Below the pieces are notes generated by a model. That model was not told the origin of the DNA. It ran no database searches and saw only the letters and a list, made by a program, of their open reading frames with translations. DNA of 10,718 nucleotides from Comamonadaceae bacterium. Lineage in GTDB: Bacteria > Pseudomonadota > Gammaproteobacteria > Burkholderiales > Burkholderiaceae_C. The translations under genes were made by a program, and so were the position numbers. The stretch spans positions 1-10,718 of the forward strand of contig CANGYC010000059.1 of assembly GCA_947457975.1 (NCBI GenBank), in the 5' to 3' direction. Of the stretch, positions 90 to 10,657 are shown piece after piece (positions within the stretch are counted from its first letter, which is position 1; the number at the start of each line of letters is the position of its first letter).

Positions 90-884
90 TCAGCCGGCCT
101 TGGCCGGCGCGGGCGCTGGCGGGGTGCCGAACTCCCGGACCAAGTCGTCGGCGCCACGGGCCAGCAGGCTGGCGTCCACGCCGACTGCCGTGAACGTGGT
201 GCCGCGGTCAATGAAGCGCCTGGCCAGCTGACGGTCGGCTGTGAGGATGCCCGCCGCCTTGCCGCAGGCAACGATGCGCCCGATGGCGTCGTCGATGGCT
301 TCAAGCAGCCGGGGATGTTTGAGTTGGCCGGCGATGCCCATGCTGGCAGCCAAGTCGCCCGGGCCGATAAAAATGCCGTCAACCCCATCTACTGCAGCAA
401 TGGCCTCAATCTGTGTGAGCGCCTCCACCGTCTCGACCTGGACCAGCAGGCACAGCTCGTCATTGCAGCGCTGGACGTAGTCGGGGATGCGCCCGAAGCC
501 GGTCGCCCGTGTGGCCGCGCTCATGCCGCGGATGCCGAGCGGCGGGTAGCGCATGGCGCGCACGGCCGCGAGGGCTTCCTCCGCGTTCTGTACATAAGGC
601 ACGAGCAGGGTTTGCGCGCCGGTGTCCAGCAAGCGTTTGAAGGCCAAGACGTCATTCCAGGCCGGGCGGACCACCGCGTGGCTGGGGTAGCCCGCGACCA
701 CCTGCATCTGCCGCAGGATGTCGTCGTAGTCGTTGGGAGAGTGCTCCATGTCCAGCAGCAGCCAGTCGAAACCAGCGCCCGCGACCGATTCCGTGGCGTA
801 GTGGCTCGCCAGGGTCATCCACAGGCCCGTTTGATGCCTGCCCTCGCGCAAGGCCCGCTTGAATGTATTGATAGGCAGATTCAT
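90..884 (-). CDS. hpaI: 4-hydroxy-2-oxoheptanedioate aldolase (HpcH/HpaI family)
   Basis: This is a 264-residue class II pyruvate aldolase of the HpcH/HpaI family. HpaI cleaves 4-hydroxy-2-oxoheptanedioate to pyruvate and succinate semialdehyde, the last step of the homoprotocatechuate meta-cleavage pathway in the cytoplasm. The residues known from E. coli HpaI are recognisable: the catalytic His in MEHSPND (H48), the Arg in VVRPAWND (R73), the metal-binding Glu in QVETVEA (E151) and the Asp in GPGDLAA (D177). The RYPPLGIRG segment (112-120) is also typical. The ATG at 884 is chosen because it gives the family's usual N-terminus and length; the open frame extends further upstream, but there it would overlap hpaH. 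It starts 10 bases after the hpaH stop, so the two are cotranscribed. Related aldolases accept other 2-oxo-4-hydroxy acids, so the exact substrate is inferred mainly from the hpaH neighbour. Confidence 0.93.
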   Translation of the reverse strand: MNLPINTFKRALREGRHQTGLWMTLASHYATESVAGAGFDWLLLDMEHSPNDYDDILRQMQVVAGYPSHAVVRPAWNDVLAFKRLLDTGAQTLLVPYVQNAEEALAAVRAMRYPPLGIRGMSAATRATGFGRIPDYVQRCNDELCLLVQVETVEALTQIEAIAAVDGVDGIFIGPGDLAASMGIAGQLKHPRLLEAIDDAIGRIVACGKAAGILTADRQLARRFIDRGTTFTAVGVDASLLARGADDLVREFGTPPAPAPAKAG

Positions 885-894
885 GGCTGCCCGA

Positions 895-1677
895 TCAGAC
901 GAATTGCACGCAAACGCTGCCCAGGGTCCCGAAGTCACCGAAGAGCGTGTCACCCTTCTTGGCATAGACCACGCGGGTGAACGAGCCGGCCAGCACGATG
1001 TGCCCAGCCTCCAGTCCCACACCGTGTTGCCCCAGCTTGTTGGCCAGCCAGGCCACACCCAGCGCCGGATGGCCGAGTACGCCTGCGGCCACGCCGGTTT
1101 CCTCGATTTCGGAGTTGCGGTACATCAGGCCGCCCACCCAGCGCAGGTCGACGTCCATGGGCCTGACGGGCCGACCACCCAGGACAAGACCGGCGGCTGC
1201 ACCGTTGTCGGCGATCGTGTCCTGGATCTTGCGGGGATCGACCAGACGGGCATCGACGATTTCCAGGGCCGGCACCACGTAGTCGGTGGCGCGCAGCACA
1301 TCGACCAGGGTCACACCGGGGCCTTTGAGAGGCTGGCCCAGCACGAAGGCCAGCTCCACCTCAACCCGGGGCAGGCAGAAGCTGGCATGAGGCACCTTGG
1401 CCCCTTCGGCAATCAGCATGTTGTCCAGCAGATAACCGTAATCGGGCTCGTTGATCTTTGACGACGCCTGCATGGCCTTGGACGTCAGCCCCACCTTGTG
1501 GCCGATGAGCTTGGCGCCGGCGGCGATCTTGCGCTGCGTCACGGCCGTCGAAATCGCGTACGAATCCTCGATTTCGATGTGCGGGAAGGAATCGGTCAGC
1601 AGCTTGGCCTGGCGGCAATCGCGCTGGGCTTGCAGCAGGGTTTCGACTGCTTGCAGGCGTTCGGCTTCGGTGAGCAT
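895..1677 (-). CDS. hpaH: 2-oxo-hept-3-ene-1,7-dioate hydratase
   Basis: This is a 260-residue hydratase of the fumarylacetoacetate-hydrolase fold (MhpD/DmpE/HpaH group). It adds water to 2-oxohept-3-ene-1,7-dioate to make the substrate of HpaI. The resemblance to E. coli HpaH is strong throughout: [15 protein letters not shown] (59-73), EPDYG (77-81), VEVELAFVL (105-113) with metal ligands E106 and E108, ALEI with E139, and [11 protein letters not shown] near 191-201. I prefer the ATG at 1677, because AAAGGA lies just upstream at a suitable distance. A TTG at 1698 would add seven residues (MTLKDTA) and has no comparable ribosome site. It is the first gene of a leftward hpaH-hpaI pair and faces the rightward operon across 139 bp. 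The hpa genes for ring cleavage, dehydrogenation, isomerisation and decarboxylation are not in the window. Confidence 0.94.
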
Positions 1678-1816: not shown

Positions 1817-2266
1817 ATGAGTTCTGGAAAAGTGAACCTGGCCGAAGCCCTGCGCAGCGCCGGCCTGGATCCTTCAGCCTCCGCCGATCTGGTGGCACGC
1901 CACAAACCCACCTACACCGGGCTGCTGGGTTTTTTGCCGCCCCGGGTGGAAGCGCGCATGACGTTCACGGGCGCATTGGACCCGCAGATCGTTGAGATGC
2001 AGGAGGCCCTGCGCTCGCATGCCATGGACACGCCGCACCTGGACCCCAAGGTCACGCAGCTGATGCTCTTTGGCATGCTGCTGATGGACGGAAACGACGC
2101 GGCCGAAACGCACGCCATCGCCGCGCGCCACGAAGGCGCGAGCTGGCAGGAACTGCAGGCGGCTGTGAGTCTGTGCTTTTTGTTCCGTGGCCTGCCAGCG
2201 GCCAACCGAGGCGCCGATATGCTGGCGCGCGTGGCCTTGCGCGAATCCCAGGCCACGGCGGCCTGA
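1817..2266 (+). CDS. Carboxymuconolactone decarboxylase (CMD/AhpD-like) family protein
   Basis: This 149-residue protein has the small all-helical CMD fold. The core is at about 75-140: LFGMLLMDGNDAAETHAIAA followed by EGASWQELQAAV, with the conserved His (H99) that is seen in gamma-carboxymuconolactone decarboxylases. It has no CxxC pair (the only Cys is C120), so it is not a peroxidatic AhpD. It may be a decarboxylase or isomerase, or an accessory protein; the substrate is unknown. The ATG at 1817 is chosen because AAAAAGG lies six bases upstream. An upstream ATG at 1724 would add 31 atypical residues that run through the AT-rich control region. It is the first gene of the rightward operon and is 13 bp from the next gene, a LigI-type hydrolase. 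Both families act on muconolactone-like intermediates in other aromatic pathways. Confidence 0.85.
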   Translation: MSSGKVNLAEALRSAGLDPSASADLVARHKPTYTGLLGFLPPRVEARMTFTGALDPQIVEMQEALRSHAMDTPHLDPKVTQLMLFGMLLMDGNDAAETHAIAARHEGASWQELQAAVSLCFLFRGLPAANRGADMLARVALRESQATAA

Positions 2267-2279
2267 AGACCGACCCTCC

Positions 2280-3173
2280 ATGCCAGACCCAGCGAACGCC
2301 ATCACTTCGGCCCCGCCCTGCCAAGGACCGGATCGCCAGACGCGCAAGCCGCGGTTCAAGATGCCTTCGCTGGCCTGCGACACGCACGCCCATGTGTTCG
2401 GTCCGCAAGACCGATTTCCCTTTTCCCCAGAGCGCAGCTACACACCCGAGGACTGCACGGTCGAGCAATACGCCGCGCTGCTGCAGACCCTGGGCGTAGA
2501 ACGCAAGGTGGTGGTGCACGGCGGGGCGCATGGCACCGACAACCGCGTCAGCCTGGATGCGATAGCGCGCCTGGGGCCGTCGGCACGCGGCGTGGCCGTG
2601 ATCCGGCCTGGCCTGGGCCAGGATCAGCTGCAGCGCCTGCATCAGGGCGGCATGCGCGGCTGCCGCCTGTCCACGGTGGTGCGCGGCGGCGCCAGCTTCG
2701 AGCACCTCGAAGCCCTGGCAGCCGAGACCCTGGAGCTGGGCTGGCACCTGGTGCTGCATCTCAAGCATTCAGAGGAGCTGGTCGCCCTGGCGCCGCGCTT
2801 GCGCTCGCTGCCCAATCCCTTTGTGCTGGATCACCTGGGCCATGTGCGGGGTAGCGAGGGCGTGGATTCGCCGGGCATGCGCGCGGTGATGGACCTGCTG
2901 GAGACCGACCGCTGCTGGGTCAAGCTGGCCAGCCTGTACCGCTCGTCGTCGCAGCCTTATCCACACACCGACATGCTGCCCATGATTCACCGCGTGGCCG
3001 CAGCGCGGCCCGACCGGCTGCTGTGGGGCAGCAACTGGCCACACCCGATTTACGCCGGAGCCATGCCCAACGATGGCGACCTGGTTGACCTGATCCCCCT
3101 GTGGACGCCCGAGCCCGCCGTGCAGCAGCAGATGCTGGTCGACAACCCAGCACGCCTGTATGGCTTCGAATAA
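2280..3173 (+). CDS. Amidohydrolase-2 family protein, LigI-like (2-pyrone-4,6-dicarboxylate lactonase relative)
   Basis: This 297-residue TIM-barrel protein belongs to the PF04909 amidohydrolase family, in the branch that holds 2-pyrone-4,6-dicarboxylate lactonase (LigI), sulfomuconolactone hydrolase and sugar-lactone isomerases. Diagnostic segments are CDTHAHVFGP (33-42, HxH at H36/H38), RSYTPED (52-58), LVLH (H160), LDHLGH (H185/H188) and WGSNWPHP (249-256). The last is usually GSDWPHP; here the Asp is Asn (N252), which may change the chemistry. A cytoplasmic lactone hydrolase or isomerase is the best guess. The ATG at 2280, 13 bp after the previous stop, lacks a strong ribosome site. An internal ATG at 2361 (six residues before the HxH Asp) is a real alternative, because the first 27 residues look unstructured. 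The function is inferred from family and neighbours only. Confidence 0.87.
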   Translation: MPDPANAITSAPPCQGPDRQTRKPRFKMPSLACDTHAHVFGPQDRFPFSPERSYTPEDCTVEQYAALLQTLGVERKVVVHGGAHGTDNRVSLDAIARLGPSARGVAVIRPGLGQDQLQRLHQGGMRGCRLSTVVRGGASFEHLEALAAETLELGWHLVLHLKHSEELVALAPRLRSLPNPFVLDHLGHVRGSEGVDSPGMRAVMDLLETDRCWVKLASLYRSSSQPYPHTDMLPMIHRVAAARPDRLLWGSNWPHPIYAGAMPNDGDLVDLIPLWTPEPAVQQQMLVDNPARLYGFE

Positions 3174-3197
3174 AAACCTTCCGAGAAAGACTCGCCC

Positions 3198-4169
3198 ATG
3201 AACCCCTCGTCCCTCACCCGCCGCCTGGCCTGCCTGGGCCTGCTCACCGCCTGTATGGGCCTGCACGCGCAGACCTTTCCCGAGCGCGCGATCACCATGG
3301 TCGTGCCCTTCCCGCCCGGCGGCACCACCGACATCCTGGCTCGCGCGATTGCAGACCGCATGTCACGCGAACTCAAGCAGACCGTGGTGGTGGAAAACCG
3401 CGCCGGTGCCGGCGGCAACACCGGCGCTGAGTTGGTGGCCAAGGCCAAGCCCGACGGCCACACCTTGATGCTGTCGGCCGCCGGCCCGCTGAGCATCAAC
3501 CAGCATCTGTACGCCAAGCAAGGCTACGACCCCCTTCGCGATTTCGCTCCGGTGAGCCTGGTGGCCTCGGTACCCATCATGCTGGTGGCCCACCCGCAGC
3601 GGCCCTTTCAGAACCTCAATGAGTTCATTGCGTATGCCAAGGCCAACCCAGGCAAGCTCTCCTACGGCTCGCAAGGCAACGGCACCACCAGCCACCTGAC
3701 CATGGAGCTGCTCAAGCGCCGGGCTGGGCTGCAGATCACGCACATTCCCTACCGCGGCAGCGCGCCCGCCTCCACCGACCTGATGGGCGGGCAAATCGAC
3801 GTGATGTTCGACAACTCACCCTCGACCTTGCCACATGTGCAGTCGCAAAAAATGCGCGGCCTGGCCGTGGCCTCGAGCGTCCGCGTGCAAAGCATGGGCA
3901 GCCTGCCCACGGTGGCCGAAGCGCTCAGCGGCTTCGAGTCCACCGCCTGGTTTGGCATCGTGGCGCCAGCGCGCACCCCCGACGCAGTGATTGCCGTGCT
4001 CAACCGCAGCATCGACAGTGCACTGCGCCAAAACGAGGTGAAGGAAAAAATGGCTGCCTCCGGCGTCGACCTGATCGGCGGGCCCGCGGCCGACCTGGGC
4101 AAACACATGCGCGAGGAAAGCGGCAAGTGGGCCGAGATCATCAAGTCGCTGTCGCTCAAGCTCGACTGA
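3198..4169 (+). CDS. Bug/TctC-family periplasmic solute receptor (first copy)
   Basis: This 323-residue substrate-binding protein belongs to the tripartite tricarboxylate transporter receptor family (Bug, PF03401). Such receptors bind carboxylates in the periplasm, usually for TctA/TctB permeases. The N-terminus is a Sec signal peptide (TRR then a hydrophobic stretch), with probable cleavage after LHA at residue 24. Family signatures are VPFPPGGTTDILAR (36-49), VVENRAGAGGNTGAE (64-78), KPDGHTLM (84-91) and the later HIPYRGSAPA. An LTAC sequence at 16-19 resembles a lipobox, but soluble Bug export is the usual state. The ATG at 3198 has GAGAAAG upstream at a suitable distance and is 24 bp after the amidohydrolase stop. 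No tctA or tctB is present, so it is an orphan receptor, as is common in this family. The ligand cannot be read from the sequence. Confidence 0.93.
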   Translation: MNPSSLTRRLACLGLLTACMGLHAQTFPERAITMVVPFPPGGTTDILARAIADRMSRELKQTVVVENRAGAGGNTGAELVAKAKPDGHTLMLSAAGPLSINQHLYAKQGYDPLRDFAPVSLVASVPIMLVAHPQRPFQNLNEFIAYAKANPGKLSYGSQGNGTTSHLTMELLKRRAGLQITHIPYRGSAPASTDLMGGQIDVMFDNSPSTLPHVQSQKMRGLAVASSVRVQSMGSLPTVAEALSGFESTAWFGIVAPARTPDAVIAVLNRSIDSALRQNEVKEKMAASGVDLIGGPAADLGKHMREESGKWAEIIKSLSLKLD

Positions 4170-4180
4170 GGCCCCCAGCC

Positions 4181-4879
4181 ATGGCCCGCGCCGCCGCCCT
4201 GGCCCCGTCCGCTGACGGTGAAGAAGGCGCGCGCACGCTGTCCACTGAGCTGACCGCGCGCCTGCGCGAGGCCATCTTGTCGGGCGAGCTGGCGCCGGGC
4301 AGCAAGCTCAAGCTGGACATGCTGCGCGAGCGCCTGGGCCTGACGCTCAGCCGCAGCCCGCTGCGCGAGGCGCTCTCGCGTCTGAGCGCCGAGGGCCTGG
4401 TGCGTATTGAGGATCAGCGCGGCTACTGGGTGGCGCCCGTCTCCGAAGCCAACCTGAAAGAGATTGCACGCCTGCGCATCCACCTGGAGACCCTGGCCTT
4501 GCGCGAATCGATCGCCCTGGGTGATGCGCAATGGGAGCAAGCCATCGCCCAAGCGCTGCACCAGCTGGCGCAGGCCCCGCGCAACGAATCGAGCCGGCAG
4601 GCCCCAGGCGCCTGGGAAGCCGCGCACCGACAATTCCACTTTGCCCTGCTGGGCGCCTGCGGCATGCCGATGCTGCTGCAGTACTGCGCCAGGGTGCACG
4701 ACCAGAACGACCGATACCGTCGCCTGTTTTTGCAACGCAACCCCTTTGACCGCAACGTTCACCTCGAGCACCAGACCATCGTCGAGGCCACGCTAGAGCG
4801 CAACGCCGACCTGGCCTGCGCACTGTTGGCCCAGCACATCGACCGAACCACGCGCAACATCTGCGCGGCGCTCGGCTAA
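4181..4879 (+). CDS. GntR-family transcriptional regulator, FCD (FadR-type) subgroup
   Basis: This 232-residue repressor or activator has an N-terminal winged helix (about 17-85) with the GntR pattern: LREAILSGELAPGSKLKL, then SRSPLREALSRLSAEGLV and the wing at RGYWVAPVS. A helical FCD ligand-binding domain follows (about 93-225). The FCD metal-site histidines are visible at H153 (QFHFALL), H197 (LEHQTIVEA) and H219 (AQHID). The position that usually holds an Asp, four residues before the first His, is H149 here. FCD regulators sense small organic acids, often the pathway substrate. The ATG at 4181 is 11 bp after the Bug stop, so it is translated from the same transcript. Lying between two receptor genes, it very likely controls this operon, and perhaps hpaHI through the shared 1678-1816 region. 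The operator is not established. Confidence 0.92.
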   Translation: MARAAALAPSADGEEGARTLSTELTARLREAILSGELAPGSKLKLDMLRERLGLTLSRSPLREALSRLSAEGLVRIEDQRGYWVAPVSEANLKEIARLRIHLETLALRESIALGDAQWEQAIAQALHQLAQAPRNESSRQAPGAWEAAHRQFHFALLGACGMPMLLQYCARVHDQNDRYRRLFLQRNPFDRNVHLEHQTIVEATLERNADLACALLAQHIDRTTRNICAALG

Positions 4880-4917
4880 ACGGCTTCAGAAGACCCGCCC
4901 CCACCAAGGAGATATCG

Positions 4918-5898
4918 ATGACAAGACAAGGAATCCGCCGCAGCCTTCTCGCCCTGCCGCTGCTCGCCCTGGCCGTACCCGCCTGGGCCCAAGGCAACTA
5001 CCCCAACAAGCCCATTCGCATCGTCGCGCCCTTTGCCGCTGGCGGCGCGGCCGACACCGTGGCCCGCATCATCGGGCCCAAGCTCTCAACCGCCCTGGGC
5101 CAACCGGTGGTCATTGAGAACCGCGCCGGCGCCGGCGGCTCCATCGGCTCAGCCCAGGTGGCCGCTTCGCCGGCCGACGGTTACACCTTGCTGATGAACC
5201 TGGGCCCGCCCCACCAGACCGTGCAGCTGTTCACCAAGGGCGTGAACTACGATCCGGTCAAGGACTTCAGCGCCATTGCCAAGGTCGCTGTCGCCCCGCA
5301 GGCCATTGCCGTGCCTGCGAATTCGCCGATCAAGACCATGGCCGATCTGGTGGCGCTGTCACAGGCCAACCCCAAGGGCCTGTCCTTTGGCACCTCGGGC
5401 GTCGGCACCTCGCAGCAGCTGGCGGGCCTGCTGCTCACCACCACGCAAAAAGCCAAATTGACGCATGTGCCTTACCGGGGCGGCTCGGCCGCGCTGACCG
5501 ACGTGATCTCGGGCCAGGTGGACCTGGGCATTTTGGTGCTGTCCAACCTGCTGCCGCATGTGCAGACCGGCAAGCTGCGCATCCTGGCGGTGGTCGAGGC
5601 CGGCCGCTCGGCCAGCGCGCCGACCATTCCCACCGCCGCAGAAAGCGGCATCACCGGCTTTTCCGTGCCCGACACCTGGGTCGGCCTGTTGGGTCCGGCC
5701 GGCATGCCCGCGCCCGTGGTGCAGCGCCTGGGCGCCGAGATGGACAAAATCATGCGCGACCCCGAGGTGGTCGCCCGCATGAACCAGGCCGGCTACGACA
5801 TCAAGTTCGCCGGGCCGGTCGATTTCTCACGCCAACTGGCCGACAGCGCCCAGCTCTACAAGACCCTCACGCAACAAGCGGGCATCACGCCCGAATGA
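4918..5898 (+). CDS. Bug/TctC-family periplasmic solute receptor (second copy)
   Basis: This is a second, clearly diverged Bug receptor of 326 residues. It has a classical signal peptide (RR, a Leu/Ala-rich core, cleavage after AWA at residue 24). Family segments are VAPFAAGGAADTVAR (36-50), VIENRAGAGGSIGS (65-78), PADGYTLLMN and THVPYRGGSAAL. The pocket loop is AAGGAADT, where the first copy has PPGGTTDI, so the two probably bind different ligands or bind them differently. It has the strongest ribosome site of the operon, AAGGAG at 4906-4911, six bases before the ATG, which suggests high expression as expected for a receptor. It is 38 bp after the GntR gene and 22 bp before the deacetylase-like gene. 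Without TctA/TctB in the window it must use a distant permease or act in sensing. Confidence 0.94.
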   Translation: MTRQGIRRSLLALPLLALAVPAWAQGNYPNKPIRIVAPFAAGGAADTVARIIGPKLSTALGQPVVIENRAGAGGSIGSAQVAASPADGYTLLMNLGPPHQTVQLFTKGVNYDPVKDFSAIAKVAVAPQAIAVPANSPIKTMADLVALSQANPKGLSFGTSGVGTSQQLAGLLLTTTQKAKLTHVPYRGGSAALTDVISGQVDLGILVLSNLLPHVQTGKLRILAVVEAGRSASAPTIPTAAESGITGFSVPDTWVGLLGPAGMPAPVVQRLGAEMDKIMRDPEVVARMNQAGYDIKFAGPVDFSRQLADSAQLYKTLTQQAGITPE

Positions 5899-5920
5899 CA
5901 CCTCACCCAGGAGCCCCATC

Positions 5921-6772
5921 TTGCCTTTGCTTTCCCAACGCCCCAGCCAGCCCCGAATCACCGTCATCCTGACCTTTCTGATGGAGAACTGGTCGCCGGG
6001 CAAGGCGCCGCCCTACTCGCCCATGACCAGCCCACCCAAGGCGGGCACCGAGGACCGCGCCGGAATCTTGTGGTCCAACTACGGCGGGCGCTTTGGCATG
6101 GCGCGCCTGGTGCGCACCGCGCGCCGCCACGGCGTCTTCGGCACGGCCTGCATCAATGCCCGCTCGGCCGAGCTGTTCCCGGACACGGTGCGCCAGATCG
6201 CCGCTGCCGGCTTCGAGATTGCCGGGCACAACTACGCACAGGACCAGGTGCTCTCAGGCCTGAGCGACAGCGAGGAAGTCGCGCTGGTCCGGCGCAGCCT
6301 TGACATCCTCACCGAAGTCGGCGGCCAGCGCCCGGTGGGCTGGCTCAGCTCGACGATTGCCACCAACGAGCGCACCGCCGAAGTGCTCAAGCGCGAAGGC
6401 ATGCTCTGGCACGGCGATTACAACGACATGGACCTGCCCGGCATGATCGAGACGCCAGCCGGCCCCATCGTCGGACTGCCGCACAGCGACTTTGCCGACA
6501 ACCGCGTGCTGCGCGGCGCGCCCATCGACTGGTTCACCACGTACAAGGACCTGTTCGACTTCCAGTACCAGCAGGAGCCGGACTCGATGATCAACATCAC
6601 CATGCACGGCAACTTTGGCGGCCGGCCACTGATGACCGCGCAGCTCGACAAGTTTCTGAGCTACATGGGACAGTTCGAGGGCGTGTGGATGCCCCGGCAC
6701 GACGAACTGGCCGAATGGACCCAGGCGCAGGGCACGCCAGAGGTCAAGCTCAGCCACTGGTACGCGCCTTGA
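5921..6772 (+). CDS. Polysaccharide-deacetylase-fold protein (PuuE-like C-N hydrolase)
   Basis: This 283-residue NodB-type (carbohydrate esterase 4) barrel protein is nearest in pattern to the PuuE allantoinase and peptidoglycan-deacetylase-like group rather than to classical chitin or xylan deacetylases. Visible are WSNYGGRFGMARLV (51-64), HGVFGTACINA (70-80), FEIAGHNYAQDQ (98-109, H103), VGWLSSTIATNERT (139-152) and MHGNFGGRP (228-236, H229). The usual metal Asp-Asp motif is absent; the first strand instead ends in LMENWSPG with E22. There is no signal peptide, so it is cytoplasmic and probably acts on a small amide or ring C-N bond instead of a wall polymer. The start is a TTG at 5921, with AGGAG seven bases upstream; the next Met (residue 21) would remove the first strand. 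It is the last gene of the operon and ends 4 bp from the oppositely oriented dioxygenase gene. Confidence 0.85.
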   Translation: MPLLSQRPSQPRITVILTFLMENWSPGKAPPYSPMTSPPKAGTEDRAGILWSNYGGRFGMARLVRTARRHGVFGTACINARSAELFPDTVRQIAAAGFEIAGHNYAQDQVLSGLSDSEEVALVRRSLDILTEVGGQRPVGWLSSTIATNERTAEVLKREGMLWHGDYNDMDLPGMIETPAGPIVGLPHSDFADNRVLRGAPIDWFTTYKDLFDFQYQQEPDSMINITMHGNFGGRPLMTAQLDKFLSYMGQFEGVWMPRHDELAEWTQAQGTPEVKLSHWYAP

Positions 6773-6776
6773 GCGC

Positions 6777-7718
6777 TTAGCGCCGCTGCAGCACCTCAAG
6801 GCTGGGGCGGGGCCCGCTGGCCTTGCCGGTGATCGGCGGGCGCGGCAGGCGCGACTGCCCTTCTTGCAGCGTGAAGCGGTGCTCCAGGCTGAACCAGGGT
6901 CCGCTCACGTCGGGCGCGGGGCAGCCACCTTCGTGCCGGACATACTGGCCAATGAGCGCACGCGTGACCCCGAACTGCACATCGGTCTGCAGGTTCGGGT
7001 CGTCCGAGGAATACACCTGCGAGAACTGTGTCTTGTAGCCGGGCTTGCTCATCAAAAAATGAATGTGCGCCGGCCGCATGTTGTGCCGGCCCTGCGCCCG
7101 GATCAAATCGCCCACCGGGCCGTTGACCGGGATGGGGTAGCCGACAGGCTTGATGCTGCGAAAGCGCACACAGCCTTGGGCATCGGTCGTGAAGGTGGCG
7201 CGCAGGTTCATGTCGGCCTGCGCGGGGTCCTGGTTCTCGTAAAAGCCCTCGGACGAGGCATGCCAGATATCGACCCGCACATCGGCAAGGCCTTGACCAG
7301 CCTGGTCCTGCACGAAGGCGGTGACGAAGATGGGATCGCCCGGCGTGGGCGAGCGCACGATGGACGCGCCCTGCGCCATGGGCGGCGAGCCATCGCGCCA
7401 AAAAGGCCCCAACAGATTGGCCGTGGTCAGTTCGGCGCCACCGGCCACACCGTTGTTGAGCAGGCACACCAGCGAGGACACACCGAGTGAGCCCGCTGCA
7501 AGCACCACTTCATTGTGAGACTCATGGCTAGCCTGTCCAACCCGGGCAATGCAAGCACACACCTGCTGAAATTCAGCTTCGGTCAGTTTGACCTCGCGCA
7601 CGAACTCGTGGAGATGGCGCACCGCGCTCTGAAGGATCTGCTGTAAGCGGGGGTCCGTGGTGCGTTCAAGTTCCGCGAGGACGGCCTGGGTCACATCGCT
7701 TTCTCGACTAATGATCAT
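6777..7718 (-). CDS. Intradiol ring-cleavage dioxygenase, probable hydroxyquinol 1,2-dioxygenase
   Basis: This is a 313-residue non-haem Fe(III) dioxygenase. It has an N-terminal helical dimerisation domain (about 20-100, ending in TTANLLGPFW) and a C-terminal catalytic beta-sandwich. The four iron ligands are present: Y160 in GFYENQ, Y194 in GYPIPVNGPVG, and H218 and H220 in RPAHIHF. The YPIPxxGPVG and EGFY forms fit hydroxyquinol 1,2-dioxygenases better than catechol 1,2-dioxygenases. The former convert benzene-1,2,4-triol to maleylacetate in the cytoplasm; the ring specificity is still an inference. The ATG at 7718 has AGGAG seven bases upstream. It is the last gene of a leftward unit, 48 bp after an ACMSD-type decarboxylase-like gene, which could supply its ring substrate. 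No maleylacetate reductase gene is in the window. A run of basic and Pro residues after about 285 is a short C-terminal extension. Confidence 0.92.
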   Translation of the reverse strand: MIISRESDVTQAVLAELERTTDPRLQQILQSAVRHLHEFVREVKLTEAEFQQVCACIARVGQASHESHNEVVLAAGSLGVSSLVCLLNNGVAGGAELTTANLLGPFWRDGSPPMAQGASIVRSPTPGDPIFVTAFVQDQAGQGLADVRVDIWHASSEGFYENQDPAQADMNLRATFTTDAQGCVRFRSIKPVGYPIPVNGPVGDLIRAQGRHNMRPAHIHFLMSKPGYKTQFSQVYSSDDPNLQTDVQFGVTRALIGQYVRHEGGCPAPDVSGPWFSLEHRFTLQEGQSRLPRPPITGKASGPRPSLEVLQRR

Positions 7719-7766: not shown

Positions 7767-8831
7767 TCAAGTTGGCGCGTTGGCAGGAGGCAGTCGCAAC
7801 AGTCGACGCGCGTTTGTCTCGAGGACAGCAGCCTGATCATCGGCGGACATCGTCGCCATGGCGGTCACGATCTCGACCGGCTTTTCATAGGCGATGGGGA
7901 AACAGTAGTCACTGCCCATCAGGATGCGGTCGCTGCCGACCTGGCGGACCAGGAAGTCCAGCACCGGGGCGCTGTAGCCAATGGTGTCGTAATAAAAGCG
8001 ACGAAGGTAGGACTCGGGCGAGGCCGAAAGCCGACCGAGGTCTGCACGCTTTTCCCAACCGCGCTGGAGTCGGCCGACCAGGTATGGGAAGGCACCTCCG
8101 GCGTGAGGCAGCACGAATTGCAATTTCGGAAAGCGGTCGAGCACCTGGCCGAAGATCAGGTGGGCGGCGGCCACGGCGGTTTCAAACGGGTTGCCCAGCA
8201 AATTGGTCAAGTAGTGGGCTTCGAGCCGATCCGGGGCCAACACGAAGGTGGGATGCAGGAACACCGGCAGTCCCAGATCTTCAAGCCGTTCATAGACGGG
8301 GAAGAACGAGGGATCGGACAGGTCTTTCCCGAGCACATGCGTGGCAATACAAACGCCCCGCATGGCCTGGAAACCGGCGATCCGGTCAATCTCGCGCAAG
8401 GACAGGTCGATCGCCTGCAGCGGCAAGGTGGCCAATCCAAAAAAGCGCTCAGGATGGGACTCATGCGCCTCGACCAGGCAGTCGTTGTAGAGGCTCGCCA
8501 GGGCATGGCCATCCTCACGGCCAGCCCAGTACACCATGGGTTGCGAGAGGGACAGCGCCTGGGCCTGTACGCCTTGCTGCTGCATGACTTGCAAGCGATC
8601 TTGCAGATCCACAAAGCGGGGGCCGACCGGTCCGGTCGAAAGATGCCCGTGCCAGAAGCGCGGCCCAGTAGAGGTGTCTTCCCACTGTAGCCCGTGGGCC
8701 AGGCCTCGGCGCTGAAGCTCCTTGAGCCAAGAATTGGGGAACCAGTGGGCATGAATATCCACTGGGCAGCAGGCGCAAGCCGGCGCCAAGCGCCGGTAAT
8801 CCTGCGAGGGATCAGATGCGCCCTGATTCAT
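7767..8831 (-). CDS. ACMSD-type amidohydrolase (probable aromatic-acid decarboxylase)
   Basis: This 354-residue metal-dependent TIM-barrel protein belongs to the 2-amino-3-carboxymuconate-6-semialdehyde decarboxylase group. That group also holds gamma-resorcylate, 5-carboxyvanillate and related non-oxidative decarboxylases. The full zinc set is visible: DIHAHWFP (H27, H29), VFLHPTF (H193), LPHAGGAFP (H243) and MGSDYCFP (D308). FFGLATLPLQ (130-139) and YYDTIGYS (280-287) are also typical. Beside a hydroxyquinol-type dioxygenase, decarboxylation of a di- or trihydroxybenzoate is a reasonable role, but hydrolases occur in the same family. The ATG at 8831 overlaps the dctM stop as ATGA, and no ribosome site is obvious, so translation is probably coupled to the transporter gene. 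Three Cys (19, 21, 22) just before the HxH motif are unusual. The substrate is not determined by sequence. Confidence 0.88.
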   Translation of the reverse strand: MNQGASDPSQDYRRLAPACACCPVDIHAHWFPNSWLKELQRRGLAHGLQWEDTSTGPRFWHGHLSTGPVGPRFVDLQDRLQVMQQQGVQAQALSLSQPMVYWAGREDGHALASLYNDCLVEAHESHPERFFGLATLPLQAIDLSLREIDRIAGFQAMRGVCIATHVLGKDLSDPSFFPVYERLEDLGLPVFLHPTFVLAPDRLEAHYLTNLLGNPFETAVAAAHLIFGQVLDRFPKLQFVLPHAGGAFPYLVGRLQRGWEKRADLGRLSASPESYLRRFYYDTIGYSAPVLDFLVRQVGSDRILMGSDYCFPIAYEKPVEIVTAMATMSADDQAAVLETNARRLLRLPPANAPT

Positions 8832-10099
8832 AGAAATTTCAGAATGTAGAGAGACAAGGCTGGCACGTAGGTCACCAAGGCCAATGCACCAAGGCTCGCC
8901 ACAAAGAAAGGCAGGATGCCGCTATACAGCACGGACAGGGGCAGCTTGAAGACGGCCTGCCCCACAAACAGATTGATGCCAAACGGCGGCGTAAAGGTAC
9001 CCAGGCTCAGGTTCATGACCACGATGACACCAAAATGCACCGGATCGACGCCGAGCGCCTTGGCCACCGGGGCCAGCAGAGGCGTGAGCACCAGGATGGA
9101 CGATGCCGTGTCCAAAAACATGCCGACCAAGAGCAGCAGCAGGTTGATGGCCAGCAACAGCATCCAGGGCTCGACCTTGAGGTCCACGACCCAGCGCACC
9201 AGCGCCTGCGGTATGCCATTGATGGTCAACAACCAGGAAAAGACGCCTGCTGCGGCAATGATGATGAAGACCTGCGAGGTCAGAATCAGCGAGCGCCCCG
9301 CCGATTCAAGGATGTCCATCCAGCCCATCTCACGATAGACCAGGGCCACCACCACAATGGCGTACACACAGGCAATTCCAGCCGCCTCGGTCGGCGAGAA
9401 AATTCCCGCATAGATACCACCGAGCACGGCGACAGGCGCACCGATGGACCAGATACCGTCGCGGGTAGCGGCCCAGAATTCAGCACGAGAAAACGGGGCC
9501 CCGCGTCCTTCGATGCCCCGCCGCACGTACCACCAAATCGTCAGGGACAGAAAGGCGGCCATGACCAGGCCGGGGACGAGGCCCGCCGCGAACAGCTTGA
9601 CGATGGACGTCTCTGAGGAGATTCCATAGAGGATGAAGCCGATCGAGGGGGGAATGAGGTTATCGATGGCAGCGCTGGAGACCAGCAGACCCGACGCAAA
9701 GCGGGGCGAGTAGCCGGCCTGCCGCATACGGTCGTAGGTCAGGCTGCCCACGGCCGCAACCGTGGCTGCCGTCGAGCCCGAGACGGCGCTGAACACGGCC
9801 GTGGTACCCAGGGCCGTCATGGGCAGACCACCTCGCATACCCCCCAACATGGACATGACCCAACGCACGAGGCGCCGCGATACGCCACCGCGCCCCATCA
9901 GATCGCCCGCAAAGATAAAGAAGGGGACCGCCAGCAGCGCGAACTTGTCGATGCTGCTGAACATCACCTGGTGCAAGGCGGTCGGCGGCACAGTCCCCGA
10001 AACAATCAAGAAGGTCGTCGCCGAAGCCAGCAGAACGAGGAAAAACGGCAGACCCAACGCCAGCAGGGCCAGCGGAAGGACAGAAAGTAGAAGAATCAC
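8828..10099 (-). CDS. dctM: TRAP transporter large permease subunit
   Basis: This 423-residue integral membrane protein, with about a dozen hydrophobic helices, is the ion-coupled permease of a TRAP (tripartite ATP-independent periplasmic) transporter. Family motifs in order are LLAVPFFIFAGDLM (55-68), SAVSGSTAATVAAVGSL (104-120), IPPSIGFILYG (149-159), GIYAGIFSPTEAA (228-240), FLDTASSILVLTPLLA (328-343) and TPPFGINLFVG (370-380). Its length is normal for the family. The start is a GTG at 10099 that overlaps the dctQ stop as GTGA, and its own stop overlaps the next gene as ATGA, so this part of the operon has no gaps. TRAP systems import organic acids, including some aromatic acids, using the sodium gradient. 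Its fusion-like packing with the decarboxylase gene suggests that the imported solute is that enzyme's substrate. Confidence 0.96.
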   Translation of the reverse strand: MILLLSVLPLALLALGLPFFLVLLASATTFLIVSGTVPPTALHQVMFSSIDKFALLAVPFFIFAGDLMGRGGVSRRLVRWVMSMLGGMRGGLPMTALGTTAVFSAVSGSTAATVAAVGSLTYDRMRQAGYSPRFASGLLVSSAAIDNLIPPSIGFILYGISSETSIVKLFAAGLVPGLVMAAFLSLTIWWYVRRGIEGRGAPFSRAEFWAATRDGIWSIGAPVAVLGGIYAGIFSPTEAAGIACVYAIVVVALVYREMGWMDILESAGRSLILTSQVFIIIAAAGVFSWLLTINGIPQALVRWVVDLKVEPWMLLLAINLLLLLVGMFLDTASSILVLTPLLAPVAKALGVDPVHFGVIVVMNLSLGTFTPPFGINLFVGQAVFKLPLSVLYSGILPFFVASLGALALVTYVPALSLYILKFL

Positions 10100-10635
10100 C
10101 CGTTGCCCCCGTGTTGCTCCAACAACCAGCGGCGCCAGCGCACGATCACAGCCAGCGCCGACAGCAGGAAGCCGATCATCAGCGCCGAGTGCGGGATGAT
10201 CTTAGGGATCTCGGCGCCCGCACTGACCGCGCCGGTCTGGTAGAACATTTGAAGAATGGTCCAGGACTGCCAGGCGATGAAGAGGCAGATGCCCAGCATC
10301 ACCGATGCAATGAAGACATTGACGACGAATCGGCTGCGCCTACCCAGGCGGGCGTAGAAGAGGTCCATGTTGAGATGGTCACCCCGCCAAGTCACCACGG
10401 CAGTGCCAAAGAACACGCCCCAGATGACCATGCCCACCAGCACTTCCTCGGCCCAGAAAATCGGCTTGCCCACGGCATAACGCCCGATCACATTGGCCAA
10501 GTTGAGTGCGACGCCGCCCAGCATGACCACACCCAGGACGATGTAGAGCCAGCGCAAGCCATCCTTGCGGCGGGGAGCCTCAACCCCGTCATGATCCTGC
10601 GCTTGAGGCGGCGTCGCCTTGTTTTCCGAGTTCAT
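10096..10635 (-). CDS. dctQ: TRAP transporter small permease subunit
   Basis: This 179-residue membrane protein has four predicted helices (about 28-50, 62-82, 103-125 and 148-168), as in DctQ, which forms a complex with DctM in the inner membrane. Characteristic pieces are NVIGRYAVGKPIFWAEE (48-64) and the TWRGDHLNMD loop (82-91). The cytoplasmic N-terminal tail of about 25 residues is polar and charged. An ATG at 10635 is preceded directly by a GTG at 10638; either can be the start, differing by one residue. The ribosome site (AGG in CCAGGCTCC) is weak. It begins 22 bp after the end of the dctP gene and overlaps dctM by four bases. Confidence 0.95.
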   Translation of the reverse strand: MNSENKATPPQAQDHDGVEAPRRKDGLRWLYIVLGVVMLGGVALNLANVIGRYAVGKPIFWAEEVLVGMVIWGVFFGTAVVTWRGDHLNMDLFYARLGRRSRFVVNVFIASVMLGICLFIAWQSWTILQMFYQTGAVSAGAEIPKIIPHSALMIGFLLSALAVIVRWRRWLLEQHGGNG

Positions 10636-10657
10636 CACGGAGCCTGGACCACGCGCC

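Follow-up and report, generated by a model that had tools for sequence, protein, structure and literature searches.

A six-gene block of restricted distribution lies between the halves of a putative aromatic catabolic unit in a Comamonadaceae bacterium

Results

Overview of the window

We analysed a 10,718 nt stretch of the Comamonadaceae bacterium assembly GCA_947457975.1 (CANGYC010000059.1; hereafter the window), which is an entire contig (C59) of a 2.31 Mb genome that is 77.8% complete. Its 12 genes comprise two on the minus strand at the left, six on the plus strand in the middle and four on the minus strand at the right. The reading that we prefer, with a probability of about 0.5, is that the six middle genes form a lineage-specific block inside a wider unit, in which an intradiol dioxygenase (IDO; 6777..7718, minus strand) would cut a trihydroxylated aromatic, with HpaH-like and HpaI-like enzymes following. 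The latter two are encoded at the left of the window, by genes for an HpaI-like 4-hydroxy-2-oxo-acid aldolase (90..884, minus strand), third of the IDO-HpaH-HpaI unit, and an HpaH-like 2-oxo-hept-4-ene-1,7-dioate hydratase family protein (895..1677, minus strand). The block encodes three accessory enzymes along with a regulator and a pair of receptors, and is located between the halves of this conserved catabolic unit: IDO ends at 6777 and HpaH begins at 1677, with the plus-strand genes between. The block may have been inserted or the trio rearranged; both fit these data. A first-pass annotation, made from the sequence alone, had instead suggested that the six genes might make up one catabolic pathway.

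The IDO-HpaH-HpaI unit in other genomes

Genome comparison indicated that IDO, HpaH and HpaI homologues co-occur in many genomes together with a GntR of the window's type. Relatives of IDO were identified in 24/299 genomes of the family (E <= 1e-70) and 11/398 genomes of the phylum (E <= 1e-80), source genome included. We read the surroundings of IDO in 21 of the 23 family genomes other than the source (G177 and G080 were left out), in 10/10 phylum genomes and in 17 of 97 plasmid records taken at E <= 1e-60. Several plasmid loci were picked for informative annotation or identity (in H99, hpaH was known beforehand) and are not a random sample. As flanks were of unequal length, 'within 10 kb' often denotes the end of a 7-9.5 kb flank, and less at contig ends. 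Outside the window's own lineage, alignments divided the loci into 37 of GQ type and 11 of D type, according to the pocket residues described below.

The three genes were contiguous in 13 of the 37 GQ loci. Hosts were Bosea (2), Microvirga, Sinorhizobium (2), Rhizobium (2), Shinella, Agrobacterium (2), Sagittula and two further genomes, and included Sinorhizobium fredii NGR234 and Rhizobium tropici CIAT 899; apart from the two further genomes, the copies are on plasmids. The HpaI following HpaH in these loci was 58-63% identical to that of the window in 12/13 cases and 49% in the other. A GntR gene, 46-50% identical to the window GntR, was found within 5 kb of the trio in all 13. The order IDO-HpaH was also present in Rhizorhabdus wittichii RW1, L048 and L095 (L numbers denote loci read). 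In total, a hydratase-family relative lay directly 3' of IDO in 18/37 GQ loci (16 HpaH-type, two MhpD-type). An FAH-family hydratase/decarboxylase gene within 300 bp on the same strand characterized 18/37 GQ loci versus 0/11 D-type loci (Fisher p 0.003), whereas a beta-keto-acid cleavage gene within 3 kb was present in 0/37 GQ versus 11/11 D-type loci; because the loci are related, p values here are only descriptive. In the window itself, the HpaH-like protein narrowly exceeded the TIGR02312 equivalog cut-off (354.5 vs 351.5 bits), and the HpaI-like protein missed that of TIGR02311 (356.4 vs 368.8 bits), which is still its best model.

AroQ was found within 10 kb in 14/37 GQ loci and AroE in 11/37; nine of the 13 contiguous trios have AroQ within that distance, and nine are in quinate/shikimate clusters. 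NCBIfam models confirmed both AroQ and AroE in L090, AroQ in L069 and AroE in L095. Near the unit in Bosea vaviloviae and in one of the two Agrobacterium loci are genes for aminomethyltransferase, MetF and PurU, with FolD in Bosea; genes of this kind typically go with tetrahydrofolate O-demethylation. Within 10 kb, 8/37 GQ loci encode a protein related to one that is annotated as 5-carboxymethyl-2-hydroxymuconate (CHM) delta-isomerase. Maleylacetate reductase was found within 10 kb in 1/37 GQ loci, its neighbour there being a second dioxygenase, of D/V type, and in 1/11 D-type loci, the latter figure making this neighbourhood a weak test; it was not found among the window genes. A search with narrow terms, covering titles and abstract openings in a literature collection without most subscription journals, found no IDO-HpaH-HpaI unit.

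Two other arrangements were noted. In L100 an HpaH-like gene (51%) and a dehydrogenase gene (40% to that of L004, described below) lie 1-5 kb from a GQ-type IDO, forming a looser cluster. D-type IDO with a beta-keto-acid cleavage gene occurred in L091, L093, L094, L101-L104, L117, L122, L123 and L125, with an SDR gene between the two in the annotated L117 and L122. This unit may serve hydroxyquinol breakdown without a thiolase step.

A two-residue signature of the IDO subfamily

Residues were compared in an alignment of 41 rows and a tree of 39 rows, numbered from the solved chain of hydroxyquinol dioxygenase. The window and all tree loci that have an FAH or AroQ neighbour fall in one clade of 30 rows (support 98/95). 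All 30 rows carry Gly at position 83 and Gln at 251, where hydroxyquinol dioxygenase has Asp83 and Val251; we take both positions to line the pocket of that enzyme. The other 11 rows (seven relatives, two paralogues and two solved enzymes) all have Asp83 with Val or Thr251, and Asp83 is present in all five solved relatives displayed. The iron ligands Tyr164, Tyr197, His221 and His223, together with Arg218, are retained in all 41 rows. Thirteen extra plasmid loci, of which several have relatives among the tree rows, divided in the same way: 9/9 with Gly/Gln lie beside HpaH and 4/4 with Asp beside a beta-keto-acid cleavage gene. The AroQ label was as low on the tree in 5/500 shuffles. By this comparison, IDO belongs to a separate intradiol subfamily, hereafter GQ.

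Layout and conservation of the six-gene block

All six block genes are on the plus strand, with gaps of 13, 24, 11, 38 and 22 bp, confirming the first-pass description of six rightward genes 11-38 bp apart. They encode a CMD-family protein (1817..2266), a LigI-related COG3618 amidohydrolase (AmH1; 2280..3173), a TctC-type solute receptor (Bug1; 3198..4169; PF03401, 260.4 bits), a GntR/FCD regulator (4181..4879; PF00392 and PF07729), a second TctC-type receptor (Bug2; 4918..5898; PF03401, 210.6 bits) and, pairing with Bug2, a PuuE-like hydrolase of the polysaccharide-deacetylase fold with a TTG start (PDA; 5921..6772; PF01522, 31.3 bits). Pfam backed the families of all six, in the case of CMD only weakly (PF02627, 26.4 bits, cut-off 23). 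The window contains 11 terminator-like sites versus 8.1 +/- 3.1 in shuffles, which is near chance; some fall within block genes and none in the five gaps. The general description of a catabolic cluster that combines uptake and regulatory genes with hydrolases also stood, and we matched it to no characterized pathway here.

The order of the block is less widely conserved than the unit around it. PDA is uncommon: at E <= 1e-40 it was found in 1/299 family genomes, that one being the source genome, and at E <= 1e-50 in 4/394 order genomes, source included. The genome collection yielded six loci and a large protein set 129 proteins at E <= 1e-30. We read ten PDA loci outside the window; relatives at 83-87%, the 87% one on a 126 kb contig, lie outside these ten. 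All twelve window genes occur in the same order in two of the ten, L004 and L005, with block proteins 98-99% and 94-98% identical to those of the window, respectively; L004 is probably the same species as the window genome. L006-L008 retain just Bug2-PDA (73-74% identity), and in L009 PDA is 63% and its accompanying Bug 46% identical. In seven of the eight loci other than L004 and L005, PDA has a Bug gene no more than about 200 bp away, although independent cases are fewer, since L006-L008 are mutually close and L109 and L112 come from one genome. As a Bug accompanies PDA in otherwise different neighbourhoods, Bug2-PDA appears to be a module of its own. So far as seen among the PDA loci read, the six-gene order is a trait of one small lineage. 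A gene order unique to this strain, which the first-pass annotation had set against its own proposal, is nearly what was found among the loci read, the order being kept there only in the window, L004 and L005. The claim of one pathway fares poorly on these grounds: both loci that keep the order are close relatives, and the enzymes conserved elsewhere, IDO, HpaH and HpaI, lie outside the block.

In L007 and L008, Bug2-PDA is near genes for a 2-hydroxyacid dehydrogenase, a class II aldolase, MmgE/PrpD, an FAD protein and an isochorismatase-family protein, and the L007 cluster additionally carries mandelate-racemase-like genes. The surroundings of the best plasmid relative of PDA (34%, Streptomyces) gave no helpful context.

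The nearest relative of PDA is the allantoinase PuuE (84-86 bits), and an assignment as PuuE was rejected because PDA scores 84.5 bits on TIGR03212 against a cut-off of 424.6. PDA is without the canonical metal ligands, which in metal-dependent NodB deacetylases we take to be HxxxH plus Asp; all 13 sequences in our alignment share E22, H103 and, four positions after the latter, Q107.

Accessory enzymes CMD and AmH1

CMD and AmH1 had been assigned to muconolactone or pyrone chemistry by family, and neither fitted the textbook member. CMD reached 17.6 bits on the PcaC equivalog model (cut-off 155.7) and was rejected as PcaC 4-carboxymuconolactone decarboxylase. Surroundings were read for four CMD relatives (2/2 non-own family matches and 2/9 plasmid records), two of which are in catechol meta-cleavage clusters: in L056 CMD belongs to a phenol-hydroxylase cluster in which catechol 2,3-dioxygenase and DmpE exceed their cut-offs, and in L066 (a Thermus plasmid) catechol 2,3-dioxygenase directly follows CMD. 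The neighbours in L057 are a Rieske oxygenase, a glutamine-synthetase-like gene and a RidA gene, whilst in L065 (a Hydrogenophaga plasmid) an alpha/beta hydrolase is the only adjoining partner. The missed PcaC model and these partly meta-cleavage surroundings do not favour action of CMD on muconolactone.

The nearest solved structure to AmH1 is LigI (207 bits, 41% over 272 aligned residues). AmH1 H36, H38, H185, R129, R135 and R221 align with LigI H31, H33, H180, R124, R130 and R217, of which we take the histidines to be active-site residues and the arginines substrate contacts. The LigI catalytic Asp248 corresponds to Asn252 in AmH1, and we therefore rejected AmH1 as a plain LigI lactonase, the function suggested in the first pass. 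Among the close relatives of AmH1 listed (62-94% identity; the best 120 of 2831), Asn occupies this position in 120/120; the LigI Tyr156 position is His in 120/120, and the Arg130 position (AmH1 R135) is Arg in 58/120. The Asp248 position is Asp in 8/8 distinct more distant genes, which come from nine rows with one duplicate. In solved chains it is Asp (4d8l), Asn (4dia), Ala (4di8) and Asn (4mup), the 4dia Asn and 4di8 Ala presumably being engineered changes. The invariant Asn among the relatives listed, the change of Tyr156 to His and the variable Arg130 mark AmH1 as a member of a conserved but altered subfamily.

Asn-type COG3618 relatives (P0121-P0240) are partly named 2-pyrone-4,6-dicarboxylate lactonase in the source records despite lacking the LigI Asp, and P0135, a relative at 76%, is named 'GntR family transcriptional regulator', probably a misannotation. 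Around AmH1 relatives in L058-L064, the genes shared with the window or L004 were limited to Bug receptors, one more AmH1-like gene in L062, and AmH2-like and dehydrogenase-like genes that matched weakly.

Right-hand genes and their extension in L004

To the right of IDO, the minus strand encodes an ACMSD-like decarboxylase-family amidohydrolase (AmH2; 7767..8831; PF04909) and the large and small permeases of a TRAP transporter, DctM (8828..10099; PF06808, 389 bits) and DctQ (10096..10638; PF04290, 96.3 bits). The best solved relatives of AmH2 are ACMSD (about 183 bits), with gamma-resorcylate decarboxylase at 83 bits. The residue aligned to Arg47 of human ACMSD, which we take to be its substrate arginine, is Gly in AmH2 (counted by eye in the printed alignment), and AmH2 was rejected as a true ACMSD on that basis. 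Plasmid relatives of AmH2 (about 45%; Burkholderia and Paraburkholderia) sit in different clusters.

L004 continues rightward beyond DctQ with DctP (PF03480), a cupin, a second GntR, a dehydrogenase and an alpha/beta hydrolase. Against the model for 2-hydroxymuconic semialdehyde dehydrogenase (cut-off 693.25) the dehydrogenase reaches 912 bits; its best solved relatives are AMSDH. The two-part cupin (12134-12814), upstream of the TRAP-AmH2-IDO genes, is ChrR-related, its matches being limited to ChrR and a single small cupin. It might have an enzymatic role, given that LumY, the dienedioate hydratase of the riboflavin pathway, is a cupin. The second GntR/FCD gene (13219-13896), 47% identical to the window GntR, precedes the semialdehyde dehydrogenase gene.

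Discussion

Proposed route and evidence against it

In the route that we propose, IDO would cleave a 1,2,3-trihydroxylated ring between two hydroxyls, the substrate being gallate, or pyrogallol after an AmH2-type decarboxylation. A 3-hydroxycatechol is suggested because an intradiol product suits an FAH hydratase or tautomerase and an HpaI-like aldolase only if a hydroxyl is next to the cleaved diol. On chemical reasoning, the product would be a 2-hydroxymuconate-type acid: 4-oxalomesaconate from gallate or 2-hydroxymuconate from pyrogallol. Such an acid could close to a 2-pyrone carboxylate. HpaH would hydrate, and HpaI would cleave the hydrated product, yielding pyruvate together with oxaloacetate or malonate semialdehyde. 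Of the other proteins, CMD and AmH1 would probably tend acyclic or pyrone intermediates of the route, TRAP, Bug1 and Bug2 would import and GntR would sense, whilst PDA and Bug2 probably make up a hydrolase module of their own. Either gallate or pyrogallol may be the substrate of IDO, and we rank neither above the other. Gallate can be reached from shikimate as well as methoxyaromatic settings, and a carboxylated ring would be in keeping with position 83 no longer being acidic. The pairing of MhpD-type and DmpH-like genes in L046 and L069 would suit pyrogallol.

Several observations weigh against this reading. The putative trihydroxylated substrate is deduced from the hydratase and aldolase downstream. 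In the window, some 5 kb separates HpaH-HpaI from IDO, and the block that intervenes is on the opposite strand. Many rhizobial loci are close relatives, such that counts are not independent, and the FAH label needs eight changes on the IDO tree, with 62/500 shuffles as low, i.e. it is not clearly clustered. An FAH gene within 300 bp is missing from 19/37 GQ loci, and 16/37 have neither an FAH neighbour nor AroQ, the nearest sister of the window, L045, being in both groups. In L050 and L051, both family genomes, IDO directly follows nadA (quinolinate synthase). L046 and L069 have IDO followed by the MhpD-type and DmpH-like genes (the MhpD model was exceeded in L046 and only just missed in L069, and neither locus reached the DmpH model), suiting pyrogallol over gallate. 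A QuiC relative in L069, below its cut-off, could yield protocatechuate instead of gallate, as could the xylose-isomerase-like TIM barrel held by other shikimate clusters. The Asn252 of AmH1 and its variable R135 likewise sit awkwardly with a LigI-like step.

Alternative explanations

An unlikely alternative, though the one to which we give most credence, is that the cluster encodes an ACMSD/AMSDH-like route through 2-hydroxymuconate(-semialdehyde) or aminomuconate, with IDO as a second entry. The cupin or another extradiol enzyme would open a carboxylated catechol or aminophenol, AmH2 would decarboxylate the open semialdehyde, the L004 dehydrogenase would oxidize it, and CMD, HpaH and HpaI would finish. 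The closeness of AmH2 to ACMSD, the dehydrogenase score and its AMSDH relatives, the presence of a cupin and the catechol meta clusters around two of the four CMD relatives all point this way. However, AmH2 has Gly at the Arg47 position, an extradiol dioxygenase family is absent among the scanned window and L004 genes, the cupin is ChrR-like, and the IDO-HpaH-HpaI unit elsewhere would be left unexplained. A resorcylate/hydroxyquinol pathway, in which IDO would act as an ordinary hydroxyquinol 1,2-dioxygenase and AmH2 as a resorcylate decarboxylase, seems distinctly unlikely. It draws on the best solved relatives of IDO, which are hydroxyquinol 1,2-dioxygenases (188 bits), and on the gamma-resorcylate decarboxylase match of AmH2, yet G and Q replace D83 and V251 in all 39 GQ rows aligned, the single maleylacetate reductase near a GQ locus is beside its own D/V paralogue, and such a route has no role for HpaH or HpaI. 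On the basis of the two residue changes and the near absence of that reductase, we rejected IDO as a hydroxyquinol enzyme.

It is also improbable, though slightly less so, that the block is a chance assembly by recombination of CMD-AmH1-Bug1, GntR and Bug2-PDA with no common substrate. Its pieces do differ in distribution (PDA in 4/394 order genomes; AmH1 in 7/299 and CMD in 3/299 family genomes, these two sharing only the source genome), and Bug2-PDA is found without the others, but order and tight gaps are retained in L004 and in L005 at 94-98% identity, and the window GntR resembles regulators of the IDO unit. Least probable, in our view, is the original proposal of a single six-gene route that degrades an N-acyl, amide or N-heterocyclic aromatic acid, with PDA opening a C-N bond. 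The tight gaps do suggest a single transcript, and the sole hint of such a substrate is the PuuE-like fold of PDA, whose lack of the usual metal ligands resembles a non-metal C-N hydrolase. Against this, the six-gene order was seen only in the window, L004 and L005, TIGR03212 is far from reached, and other nitrogen-handling enzymes were not recognized in family scans of the window. PDA is also separable, together with its Bug, and has unrelated neighbours elsewhere. An N-heterocycle in particular is unsupported.

Relationship to known systems

The homoprotocatechuate (Hpa) meta-cleavage pathway is the comparison system for HpaH and HpaI. The unit shares homologues of both with it and, in some IDO loci, a CHM isomerase homologue, but HpaD, HpaE and HpaG are absent from the annotated unit tables read and an intradiol enzyme is present instead. 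IDO is of the same family as hydroxyquinol 1,2-dioxygenase (1TMX, PnpC), with the same Tyr/Tyr/His/His iron ligands and Arg218; it differs from the hydroxyquinol/maleylacetate pathway in the G/Q pocket and in neighbours that are often HpaH/HpaI, not maleylacetate reductase. LigI acts in protocatechuate 4,5-cleavage, and AmH1 differs in being without its catalytic Asp. In the known gallate route, ring cleavage, hydration and the aldolase step fall to enzymes of families other than those in the window. If gallate is the substrate, the likeness to the protocatechuate route and to the gallate route with GalB/GalC (PMC10512348) would extend to 4-oxalomesaconate, the pyrone PDC, and pyruvate plus oxaloacetate.

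Riboflavin catabolism provides a precedent for pyrone hydrolysis, hydration and retro-aldol cleavage: as reported, the lumichrome steps LumE-LumW-LumY-LumX run from ring cleavage to a pyrone carboxylate, hydrolysis, hydration and a retro-aldol step giving pyruvate, using an extradiol enzyme (LumE), a cobalt-dependent hydrolase (LumW) and a cupin hydratase (LumY) (PMC12746152). The window has an intradiol enzyme, a COG3618 protein and HpaH/HpaI proteins in contrast. In the yeast gallate-pyrogallol route, Blastobotrys Acdo1p similarly performs intradiol cleavage of pyrogallol to 2-hydroxymuconic acid; it is a fungal catechol 1,2-dioxygenase preferring catechol, and the next enzyme is described there as unidentified (PMC9204233). 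Gallate catabolism in Aspergillus is, as outlined in its source, a different, hydroxylating route (PMC12388069).

Implications

It is possible, at rather less than even odds, that the GQ subfamily comprises bacterial intradiol dioxygenases for gallate or pyrogallol which, with HpaH/HpaI, form a short ring-to-pyruvate route without an extradiol enzyme. If true, this route would join quinate/shikimate and methoxyaromatic breakdown to central metabolism, and the window would extend it by private importers and by COG3618 and CMD enzymes. It would also supply either an intradiol counterpart of gallate dioxygenase or a gene for the orphan EC 1.13.11.35, which we take to be pyrogallol 1,2-oxygenase and to which a gene has perhaps been assigned by now. 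That EC number is among the orphans in a 2007 survey (PMC1940265). In a study of syringol conversion, the fate of 2-pyrone-6-carboxylate is called unclear and future work is envisaged to seek a dioxygenase cleaving pyrogallol to a metabolizable product, e.g. 2-hydroxymuconate (PMC6628648). With its two-residue signature, recurrent hydratase-aldolase neighbourhood and occurrence in soil and root bacteria, the GQ subfamily would be a testable candidate for a pyrogallol dioxygenase, and its signature would allow annotations of 'hydroxyquinol' or 'catechol 1,2-dioxygenase' to be sorted. The wider interest is in this intradiol subfamily and its hydratase-aldolase unit, rather than in the lineage-bound block.

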